Assembly: GCF_026278245.1 (NCBI RefSeq)
Contig: NZ_CP111079.1
Location: 498,501-562,500 of the forward strand
Direction: 5' to 3'
Source of the DNA: Pontibacter kalidii
GTDB taxonomy: Bacteria; Bacteroidota; Bacteroidia; Cytophagales; Hymenobacteraceae
Length of the DNA stretch: 64,000 bases
Every line of letters begins with the position of its first letter. The first letter of the stretch is position 1. The translations under genes were made by a program, and so were the position numbers. The notes beneath the pieces are model-generated. The model was not told where the DNA came from. It did not search any database and saw nothing but the letters and a program-made list of their open reading frames with translations. Below are positions 45,866 to 49,979 of the stretch, one piece after another.

Positions 45866-45898
45866 TTTGGCATTTTAAAAAGTCGCGCCGTATACTTG
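45866..45898 (+). promoter_or_regulatory. Promoter of the met operon
   Basis: TTTG (45866-45869), a 21-base spacer and TATACTTG (45891-45898), one base off TAnnTTTG. Predicted transcription start is about 45905, some 25 bases before the riboswitch. Confidence 0.55.
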
Positions 45899-45929: not shown

Positions 45930-46043
45930 TTGGTTTATAAAGAAGCGTGGAGAGACAGGCTCTGTGAAACGCTAGCAACCTAACGATCGGTGTTAAGGTG
46001 CTAATTCCTGAGTTCGGCAGGGTGCCGGACGAATATAAATTGA
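45930..46043 (+). promoter_or_regulatory. SAM-I family riboswitch (S-box-like)
   Basis: The conserved order is visible: GCGTGGAGAGAC, GTGAAAC, GCAACC (45975-45980), then a variable stem and GGTGCTAATTCC (45997-46008). Outer P1 strands are TTTATA and TATAAA. This is the consensus order of SAM-I aptamers, which bind S-adenosylmethionine to lower methionine-gene expression. It sits between the predicted promoter and metY. No intrinsic terminator follows directly; a leader ORF and a hairpin occupy the space. Confidence 0.88.
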
Positions 46044-46050
46044 TACGGTC

Positions 46051-46197
46051 ATGAACAAGGGAATCAATTCAACGCAACACGTATTACTAGTATCGCCGAC
46101 AGCCAAAGCACTGTCGCAAGTCTGCATTTTAGCTCCTGCTAAGGCTTTCGTCATGCGCATGCCCATGTGCGCCATGCACGACTGTTGTTGCTGTTAA
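46051..46197 (+). CDS. Candidate Met/Cys-rich leader peptide, 48 codons
   Basis: An ATG-started ORF lies directly after the SAM riboswitch and 144 bases before metY. It encodes 48 residues starting MNKGINSTQHVLLVSPTAKA and ending FVMRMPMCAMHDCCCC then stop. The last 14 residues hold four Met (35, 37, 39, 42) and five Cys (40, 45-48), the last four codons before the stop all being Cys. That composition suits ribosome stalling when charged Met or Cys tRNA is scarce, as in attenuation leaders. A hairpin follows at 46228-46263. The coding and regulatory roles are inferred from position and composition. Confidence 0.65.
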   Translation: MNKGINSTQHVLLVSPTAKALSQVCILAPAKAFVMRMPMCAMHDCCCC

Positions 46198-46227
46198 CCA
46201 AGGTATAAAGTTCCTGTTTTCATACAT

Positions 46228-46263
46228 GGCTTAGTGGCAGATCCCGCATCTGCTGCTACAGCC
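46228..46263 (+). promoter_or_regulatory. Hairpin between the leader ORF and metY
   Basis: A stem of about 15 bp built from GGCT/AGCC and TAGTGGCAGAT/ATCTGCTGCTA (two G-U pairs, one bulge) with a CCCGC loop. No T tract follows, so it is not a classical intrinsic terminator. It could be one arm of an attenuator or a block to downstream translation. Confidence 0.55.
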
Positions 46264-46319
46264 TACTTATACCTCTACAGCATTCCTGTCTTTACTCAAA
46301 TCATACCTTTTCTTTTTAA

Positions 46320-47663
<1,344 letters not shown>

Positions 47664-47671
47664 GTATAATA

Positions 47672-48739
47672 ATGCCAACACAGCACGTTTTTCATCACCA
47701 ACAAGAGTTTCAGCTGGAGTCCGGGGCTACGTTGCCGGGCTTCCAGCTGGCTTATACTACTTACGGCGCGCTGAACCAGCAGCGCAGCAATGTGGTATGG
47801 GTGTGCCATGCCCTTACCGGCAGCGCCGATTTTACCGACTGGTGGTGCGACCTCTTCGGGGAAGGCAAGCTCTACGACCCGCGCGAATGGTTTGTCGTGT
47901 GCGCCAACACCATGGGCGGTTGCTACGGCTCCACAGGGCCACTCTCGGTAAACCCAAAAACGCTGCAGCCATACTTCCAGACTTTTCCGCAGCTCACCAA
48001 CCGCGACATTGTGCGCGCCTTCGATCTGCTGCGGCAGGAGCTGGGGTTGGAGCGGGTGCATACGTTGCTGGGTGGCTCGCTGGGCGGGCAGCAGGCGCTG
48101 GAGTGGGTGCTGCAGAAACCTGCTGTGTTTGAGCGGCTGGTGCACGTGGCCAGTAATGCGCGGCACTCCCCTTGGGGCATCGCCTTTAACGAAAGCCAGC
48201 GCATGGCCATCCGCCAGGACCCCACCTGGGGCACCAGCACAAAGGAGGCAGGACAGGAAGGGCTAAAAACGGCCCGCGCTATCGCCATGCTGTCTTACCG
48301 CCACTACAACACCTACAACGAAGCGCAGCAGGAGCCGGGGCATAGCATTACCGACAACTTTCGCGCTTCCAGCTACCAGGTATACCAGGGCGAGAAGCTG
48401 GCACAGCGGTTCAATGCTTATACTTACTGGCTGCTCTCCAAGGCCATGGACTCGCACAACGTGGGCCGCGACAGAGGGGGTGTGGAGCGTGCACTGGCAC
48501 AGGTAAAGGCCCGGAGCCTGTTTGTGGGTGTGGATACCGACCTGCTGTTTCCGGTAGAGGAGCAGTATTTCCTGCATGCCCAGGTGTCGGATTCCTCCTT
48601 TCACCTTATCCGCTCCAACTATGGCCACGATGGCTTTCTGGTGGAGGTGGACCAGCTGACGGAGGCTATCCGTCAATTTTATCAAAATGAAAAAGTAACA
48701 GAAGAAGAAGAATTCAACTATGAAAAGCAAGAGCGGTAA
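47672..48739 (+). CDS. metX: Homoserine O-acetyltransferase (MetX)
   Basis: A 355-residue alpha/beta hydrolase that makes the MetY substrate O-acetylhomoserine. The nucleophile motif is GGSLGGQQALEW (Ser136), with the oxyanion region CHALTGSADFTDWW and the C-terminal His in NYGHDGFLVE. It lies 8 bases after metY and overlaps hom by 20 bases. Confidence 0.95.
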   Translation: MPTQHVFHHQQEFQLESGATLPGFQLAYTTYGALNQQRSNVVWVCHALTGSADFTDWWCDLFGEGKLYDPREWFVVCANTMGGCYGSTGPLSVNPKTLQPYFQTFPQLTNRDIVRAFDLLRQELGLERVHTLLGGSLGGQQALEWVLQKPAVFERLVHVASNARHSPWGIAFNESQRMAIRQDPTWGTSTKEAGQEGLKTARAIAMLSYRHYNTYNEAQQEPGHSITDNFRASSYQVYQGEKLAQRFNAYTYWLLSKAMDSHNVGRDRGGVERALAQVKARSLFVGVDTDLLFPVEEQYFLHAQVSDSSFHLIRSNYGHDGFLVEVDQLTEAIRQFYQNEKVTEEEEFNYEKQER

Positions 48740-49979
48740 ACGAATCGGGATATTTGGCTTTGGCTGCGTGGGCCAGGGGCTGCATGACGTGCTGCAGGAC
48801 AACCCACACCTGGATGTGGCCAAAATCTGCGTGCGCGACAAGGAGAAGCTGCGCACCCTGCCCAAGCATCATTTTACCTATGACGCGCAGGAGCTGCTGC
48901 AGGACGAAAGTATAGATCTGTTTGCCGAGCTGATCAGCGACCCGGAGGAGGCGCTGCTGATAGTGCGCCAGGCGCTGGAGGCGGGTAAAACCATCGTGTC
49001 GGCCAACAAGAAGATGATTTCGGAGAACCTGCCGGAACTGGTGGCACTGCAGGAGGAGTTTGGCGGCACTTTGCTCTACGAGGCGGCTGTGTGCGGCAGC
49101 ATTCCAATCCTGCGGACGCTGGAGGCATACTATGGCAACGAGCCGCTGCAGGAGGTAAGCGGTATCTTGAACGGTTCATCCAACTACATCCTCACCAAGC
49201 TGGATGCGGAAGGCATAAGCTATGACGAGGCACTGGCGCAGGCGCAGGCGCTTGGCTTTGCCGAGGCTGACCCGACGCTGGACGTGGGCGGCTACGATGC
49301 CCTGCACAAGATCAGCTTAATTGCCGCGCATGCCTTTGGGGCCGTGATAAAGCCGGAGCAGGTACTCCGTGCAGGCATTCAGCACATATCGCGGCGGGAT
49401 GTGGCGCTGGCACAGGCACTGGGCGGGCGCATCAGGCTGGTAGCCACGGCCAGGCTGAACCAGCACAAAAAACTGGAGCTACAAGTGCTGCCTACGCTCG
49501 TGTTCCCCGACTCGGAGCTATACTATGTGGAGGCGGAGTTTAACGGGGTGCAGCTACAGGCCCGCTATGCCGGCGATCAGTTTCTGAAGGGGCGCGGTGC
49601 CGGAAGCCACCCAACCGGGTCTGCCGTATGGGCCGATGTATCGGCAGCGCTGGCCGGCTACAAGTATAAATACCCTAAATTCAAGTATAACGACGAGGCG
49701 CAACTGAAGCCGGTACCTTTGGAGGAGGACGATGAATTGAAAGTATACGTGCGCACGACCATGCCCGAGTTTCTGCCCCAGCTGCCGTGGCGGGAGCTGA
49801 GGGTCTTTGGTACGGGGAAAAGGGAGGTGCAACTGGTAGGCACCATTGGCAGGAAAGACTTTCTTTTATACCTGCCGGCCCTGAAGCAAACCATTGCTTT
49901 TATAGCACAGATTCCGGCCCATGTATCGGCGGAGCAGGTGGTAAATGCCTCGTATCTGAAGCTGGAGGAGGTTGTATAA
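48720..49979 (+). CDS. hom: Homoserine dehydrogenase
   Basis: A 419-residue NAD(P)H enzyme that makes homoserine from aspartate semialdehyde. The Rossmann motif GIFGFGCVGQGL is at the N-terminus; SANKKMIS and NGSSNYILTKLDAEGISYDE mark the catalytic domain. The C-terminal region carries an ACT-like fold. It is monofunctional, unfused to aspartokinase (lysC is separate at 52-53 kb), and its expression is probably tied to methionine via the riboswitch. Confidence 0.95.
   Translation: MKSKSGKRIGIFGFGCVGQGLHDVLQDNPHLDVAKICVRDKEKLRTLPKHHFTYDAQELLQDESIDLFAELISDPEEALLIVRQALEAGKTIVSANKKMISENLPELVALQEEFGGTLLYEAAVCGSIPILRTLEAYYGNEPLQEVSGILNGSSNYILTKLDAEGISYDEALAQAQALGFAEADPTLDVGGYDALHKISLIAAHAFGAVIKPEQVLRAGIQHISRRDVALAQALGGRIRLVATARLNQHKKLELQVLPTLVFPDSELYYVEAEFNGVQLQARYAGDQFLKGRGAGSHPTGSAVWADVSAALAGYKYKYPKFKYNDEAQLKPVPLEEDDELKVYVRTTMPEFLPQLPWRELRVFGTGKREVQLVGTIGRKDFLLYLPALKQTIAFIAQIPAHVSAEQVVNASYLKLEEVV

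Follow-up and report, generated by a model that had tools for sequence, protein, structure and literature searches.

In attenuators of the trp type, a leader that is not started gives the off state, and tnaC senses free tryptophan. Actinobacterial Cys leaders, a closely comparable case, are reportedly the subject of work by Canestrari in 2020. For the mycobacterial members, passages of one report state that no terminator was found and that Rho was therefore suggested, as in tna, which is named there for comparison (PMC1262725). In Mycobacterium tuberculosis, according to passages of another report, the uORF of ppe2 is needed for expression and is overlapped by ppe2 (PMC11260477). With respect to SAM-I riboswitches, passages of a survey place the ribosome-binding site (RBS) within the 3' side of the P1 stem (PMC2258182).

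Here we analysed a stretch of 64,000 nucleotides of Pontibacter kalidii (contig NZ_CP111079.1, positions 498,501 to 562,500 of the forward strand), hereafter the window, in which the metY-metX-hom genes follow a SAM-I riboswitch. Pontibacter belongs to the order Cytophagales. The features of the locus are given in Table 1. A first-pass annotation, made from the sequence alone, had described a 48-codon ORF behind a SAM riboswitch, a Met/Cys-rich end of this ORF and a hairpin between it and metY; all three were recovered, and the number of Met and Cys codons was as claimed. The riboswitch scored over the gathering threshold of its covariance model, and the leader ATG is located 9 nt behind P1. 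The nearest named relatives are other Pontibacter, the encoded MetY being 93% identical to those of P. mangrovi and P. anaerobius.

Table 1. Features of the metY locus of P. kalidii, in positions of the window.
Feature	Position	Strand	Evidence
Putative promoter of Bacteroidota type (TTTG ... TATACTTG), upstream of the riboswitch	45866..45898	+	motif match
SAM-I riboswitch aptamer (RF00162)	45932..46041	+	full-length covariance model match, 76.2 bits (gathering 44.4)
P1 strands of the SAM-I aptamer	45932-45939 and 46034-46041	+	RF00162 match
Leader ORF, 48 codons, ATG to TAA, MNKGINSTQHVLLVSPTAKALSQVCILAPAKAFVMRMPMCAMHDCCCC	46051..46197	+	ORF reading
Cluster of 4 Met and 5 Cys codons immediately preceding the stop (codons 35-48)	46153..46194	+	codon count
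Hairpin in the leader-metY interval (outer arms 46202-46208 and 46267-46273; inner hairpin 46228-46263)	about 46202..46273	+	
Interval between leader stop and metY, C-rich and G-poor, where Rho might load	46198..46340	+	composition
metY, O-acetylhomoserine sulfhydrylase	46341..47663	+	TIGR01326, 683.8 bits (cut-off 495.1); PF01053
metX, homoserine O-acetyltransferase	47672..48739	+	NF001209, 336 bits (cut-off 331)
Homoserine dehydrogenase	48720..49979	+	PF00742; NF004976, 316.8 bits (cut-off 205)

Within the genus, 46 of 50 genomes gave a MetY match with an E value no worse than 1e-150. The SAM box motif was present upstream of metY in all 46 loci, and in each of them a leader ORF of 39-51 codons begins with ATG at the corresponding position behind the riboswitch; in 45, at least three of its last eight codons are Cys. 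The leader is therefore what is expected of a ribosome-mediated attenuator, namely a short conserved ORF rich in codons of the amino acids of its pathway. Its position was nearly fixed, the distance from the end of the P1 strand (TATAAAY) to the leader ATG being 10 nt in 43 loci, 11 nt in two and 12 nt in one, while the leader stop was separated from metY by 110-151 nt. Outside the last 16 codons, Cys and Met were rare (0.010 and 0.004 per codon, respectively), and this concentration at the 3' end supports the explanation by a leader with two inputs that is developed below. When codon changes were counted on a tree built from partial metY sequences, synonymous Cys-to-Cys changes at the last three codons numbered 22 and losses of Cys 10, which supports a constraint at the codon level; codons -4 (5 versus 10) and -5 (4 versus 21), at which the simple 3'-end alignment is unreliable, give no support for it. 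The first-pass annotation had made its proposal depend on the frame and its Cys/Met run being conserved in orthologous leaders, and both are kept in 45 of the 46 Pontibacter loci. This conservation is beyond chance and confirms that the observation is real.

The locus without the Cys run is that of P. harenae (L079, the same as L313; also L412), in which the riboswitch and the leader ORF are kept. A metY gene that has the riboswitch and lacks the Cys run counts against the two-input explanation. A broken MetY as the cause of this loss was ruled out, since the gene is intact (432 codons), the TAA in the metY match being interpreted as the stop of metY itself.

Met codons are typical of the metY leaders, as the first-pass annotation had proposed for the window. 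The last 16 codons contained a mean of 2.57 Met in the 46 metY leaders and 0.41 in the 27 leaders found at other SAM riboswitches of the genus, a difference with a Mann-Whitney p of 7e-12, computed on related sequences that are not independent events; at least two Met were present in 43/46 and 2/27, respectively. The remainder of those 27 leaders had 0.007 Met and 0.000 Cys per codon. The positions of the Met codons varied among orthologous metY leaders. In 30 metY leaders of other genera, chosen by a joint Met and Cys rule and for this reason slightly biased towards Met, at least one Met was found near the end in 27 and at least two in 12.

The locus had been regarded at first as a single met operon with dual sensing. 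The leader of metY-metX-hom stands, but the confinement to one operon does not, because the regulon is wider: the genome has five SAM riboswitches at an E value of 0.001 or better, that of metY being the second match, and a poly-Cys ORF follows four of them at a distance of 43-54 nt, counted from where the SAM box motif begins. The genes concerned are metY; cysH (NF002537, 270.7 bits, over the cut-off), followed by cysD and cysN; a sulfite-reductase gene (sulfite/nitrite reductase domains PF01077 and PF03460), whose operon also contains a uroporphyrinogen methyltransferase and a MetZ-like sulfhydrylase; and an NhaC-type transporter (antiporter domain PF03553). The reductase and the cysH-cysD-cysN operons are convergent within about 11 kb. 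No poly-Cys leader was found behind the fifth riboswitch, that of metH. The composition of this regulon fits the two-input explanation, and the module with nearly pure Cys codons would serve the sulfate-assimilation genes. In addition, a search of the genome for runs of five Cys codons gave 41 matches, and the first 30, which were retrieved, included the sulfite-reductase and cysH leaders; among the same 30, short CCCC ORFs in L386, L403, L404, L406, L407, and L411 are probably out-of-frame readings. Three further Cys-run matches in the genome (L032-L034) were discarded by eye as not leader-like.

Outside metY, 45 riboswitch loci of the genus were examined (40 among the matches listed together with L023, L027, L169, L170, and L171). 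A poly-Cys leader, defined by an ATG 38-59 nt behind the box and at least three Cys in the last 15 residues, was present in 27, in which the ATG was 3-10 nt from the end of TATAAAY. A further 15 were of an AGATAAG type without poly-Cys leader, and their genes start like metH by eye; L167, a locus of this type, was put through family search. The remaining three (L286, L291, and L297) were of a direct type (TATAAAA), in which the ATG of the sulfhydrylase-like gene itself, put through family search for L286, is 46-49 nt from the SAM box. In L227, a metX-like ORF without leader starts 47 nt from the box.

Some of these loci have traits of their own. A poly-Cys leader and a SAM riboswitch precede an ATP-grasp gene in L023, L262, L266, L269, L282, and L295; this gene is weakly similar to RimK-type ligases (L262 searched) and is a candidate gene of sulfur metabolism. 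In L275 the leader is located before a gene with a CarboxypepD_reg domain. Leaders may also be arranged in tandem: at the sulfite-reductase locus (L171 and L391) a second Cys ORF, ...AQAMCCCCQQFFGMRAC, follows the first, and second ORFs ending in VHQRMCMCNCCC and VHQRMRMCSCCR were observed in L275 and L294, respectively.

At the order level, MetY was found in 123 of 194 genomes, four of them in the genus, and 86 of the other 119 were examined. Of these 86, 53 had an upstream ORF with at least three Cys in its last 14 residues, whereas the reverse complement gave 6 of 86; a few among the 53 seem to be accidental (e.g., L096, L117, L128, and L147). Among the best 80 named metY loci, the SAM box motif was found in 71 and a Met/Cys-rich leader in 42, of which 12 were in Pontibacter; the other bearers included Rufibacter, Marivirga, Chryseolinea, Pedobacter, Mucilaginibacter, and a Saprospiraceae MAG. 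TATAAA followed the SAM box in 61 of the 80, with a leader in 38 and none in 23, and the latter group counts against the two-input explanation. The 10 loci having a SAM box and no TATAAA included four with a leader. In Algoriphagus, Cyclobacterium, and Spirosoma no Cys run was found among the matches listed, although an ATG is mostly present at a similar place; such relatives speak, like P. harenae, against the proposal of the first-pass annotation. Spirosoma and Larkinella loci (L322, L328, L330, and L366) have a much shorter leader with a Cys-Met-Pro end (...QCMPARAY, ...RCCMPPAGY), perhaps a different variant.

At the phylum level, 67 loci were drawn from a larger listing, seven of them without recognisable SAM box. 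A Met/Cys-rich leader was found behind the box in five: L220, L226, and L241 (family f23), L230 (f26), and L248 (the family of the window). Four more Cys-ended ORFs look accidental (L202, L214, L236, and L251). The leader of L230, 44 nt behind the SAM box and before a MetY-like gene, ends in a stretch with numerous Met and four Cys, ...MCSPSMRMRMPMSCFSYMCA; the other 23 of the 24 loci examined in f26 had no such leader.

In attention to these data, we consider it fairly probable, judging from sequence, that a leader with two inputs, SAM and charged tRNA, explains the metY locus. Transcription would start ahead of the SAM-I aptamer. Binding of SAM would close P1, whose 3' strand, ending so near the leader ATG, would bar ribosomes from the leader; with SAM low, the leader would be translated. 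When charged tRNA is scarce (tRNA-Cys, and at metY tRNA-Cys and tRNA-Met), the ribosome would stall beside the stop codon and alter the fate of the downstream RNA, and metY-metX-hom would be expressed. The genes would remain low either when SAM is high and the leader untranslated, or when Cys and Met are ample and translation proceeds smoothly to the stop. A role of SAM as repressor agrees with the off state of trp-type attenuators whose leader is not started. In the window there can be no terminator between P1 and the leader ATG, because 9 nt are too short for it. This spacing, together with the direct-type loci, in which the gene's own ATG stands at a similar distance from the box and which suggest that SAM gates leader translation, and the RBS position in the survey of SAM-I riboswitches (PMC2258182), leads us to infer that SAM gates initiation at the leader. 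The leader would then probably be the target of the riboswitch and not an independent sensor of its own. The proposal of the first-pass annotation, one sensor for SAM and one for charged Met and Cys tRNA, is supported, with this difference in the relation between the two.

In its most general form, on which we are evenly divided, the arrangement would be a logic gate in which a translational SAM-I riboswitch has as its expression platform the start codon of a tRNA-sensing leader. This gate would operate regulon-wide in Cytophagales and relatives and turn the sulfur genes fully on only when both SAM and charged tRNA-Cys (at metY also tRNA-Met) are low, the amino acids read being fitted to the pathway.

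The output step is the least certain part. Transcription attenuation, perhaps by a tnaC-like masking of Rho, is the assignment that we favour, with slightly less than even credence. In 30 of the 46 metY loci, a promoter motif (TTG-N18-23-TAnn[TC]TTG) occurs in the 80 nt that precede the riboswitch, versus 0.4 expected from shuffling, and between the leader stop and metY it occurs in one of 46, versus 0.4 expected, which supports the two-input explanation. An internal promoter in the leader-metY interval was rejected on the latter count; many loci have before metY a TATAC-like stretch, which is unlike the motif used. The region 46180-46360 folds with a z-score of -3.3. Its hairpin is kept in 10 close relatives, and none of its 22 pairs was changed on both sides among them; in another subgroup of 12 loci the interval folds differently, also without covariation. 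Between the leader stop and metY of the window, no terminator-like site and no U-tract were found on the + strand, and no U-tract was seen behind the hairpins of the other loci inspected by eye. A conserved terminator, or mutually exclusive hairpins with a terminator, was therefore discarded, neither terminator nor covariation having been found. A translation attenuator, in which the end of the leader would pair with the start region of metY, was likewise unsupported, since species-matched energies were no better than swapped ones (-12.26 and -12.13 kcal/mol, respectively; p 0.33, 46 loci). The complementarity of the Cys run to the downstream RNA had a mean z of -0.61, versus -0.21 for an early segment of the ORF, and an anti-Cys-run sequence downstream was dismissed as a weak excess over shuffles. 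These results on terminator, hairpin, pairing and complementarity count against the two-input explanation. With respect to Rho, the interval contains 0.27 C and 0.14 G averaged over the 46 loci and the genome has a rho gene (670 bits), but among 27 upstream regions of the window the interval does no more than share the first place in C over G.

Other explanations must be weighed against the two-input leader. The riboswitch might have another expression platform and the leader might sense charged tRNA alone, so that both sensors would act in series and independently. Such an arrangement would account for Cys-rich ORFs in loci without a SAM box found by motif (e.g., L095, L101, and L102), in a search that misses some riboswitches; it is unlikely given that the 9 nt between P1 and ATG in the window leave no room for anything else, that this spacing is nearly fixed and that direct-type loci have a similar one. 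More doubtful still is a nascent peptide whose Cys-rich end would detect thiol oxidation or a metal and arrest the ribosome, tRNA charge not being the signal. Arrest peptides usually need upstream residues, and the remainder of the peptide varies widely among paralogous leaders, which argues against this mode; moreover, Met codons accompany metY but are not associated with the cys genes, which fits amino acid supply. On the other side, the Cys, Met, and His near the end of the window leader could bind metal, and redox status is also mentioned in passages on the mycobacterial case (PMC4633059).

That the ORF is conserved and rich in Cys would also be compatible with a small protein acting in trans, e.g., a metallothionein-like peptide. 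We give this very little credit, since three leaders had no Pfam match even at an E value of 1, the arrangement behind the riboswitch is strictly in cis and the compositional constraint affects the 3' end only. Even less credible is a UGY-repeat RNA motif, or chance, that mimics codons. The slight over-complementarity of the Cys run to the downstream RNA is in its favour, but the run is in frame with a near-fixed ATG and near the stop in 45 of 46 metY leaders and in 27 other leaders (these 27 selected by the run), losses at the last three codons are outnumbered by synonymous changes and the Met codons track the pathway.

If the two-input leader is true, two principles of RNA control that tend to be described separately, the sensing of a metabolite by an aptamer and of tRNA charge by a ribosome, would be joined in one unit in which the aptamer seems to gate the reading of tRNA charge, and the control of sulfur assimilation in Cytophagales and relatives would be revealed. 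The many variants (leaders with Cys alone or with Met as well, leaders in tandem, the direct type and the lost Cys run) would be natural material on the evolution of this logic. The first-pass annotation knew of no described case of a SAM aptamer with a Met/Cys leader in this group, and we found none in the open literature either: among the matches listed, no title or abstract described a Cys or Met leader together with a SAM riboswitch.

Each part of the arrangement has precedents in the parts of the literature covered, and it is their combination for which no description was found there. The actinobacterial Cys leaders are likewise short ORFs that precede cysteine or sulfur genes and have Cys codons close to their stop; however, they belong to another phylum, the passages on them describe neither a riboswitch nor a Met-plus-Cys type, and the mycobacterial ones are leaderless (PMC1262725, PMC4633059). 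The uORFC-8-2 before cysS of Rhodobacterales is, according to passages of its report, a conserved uORF with tandem Cys codons for which attenuation was proposed, but with an intrinsic terminator model, no aptamer and a single gene type (PMC8632094). The B12 riboswitches of M. tuberculosis also combine a riboswitch and a translated uORF in one leader, with another ligand and, in the passages and abstract, no codon run for an amino acid of the pathway (PMC11260477). As in E. coli tnaC and the trp, his, and leu attenuators, the position of the ribosome on the leader would set downstream expression, whereas those systems have no aptamer before the leader. Finally, the Pontibacter riboswitch resembles the translational SAM-I riboswitches, in which passages of the survey place the RBS in the 3' side of P1 and SAM would block initiation (PMC2258182), with the difference that the ORF adjoining P1 is the putative sensing leader and not the regulated enzyme.
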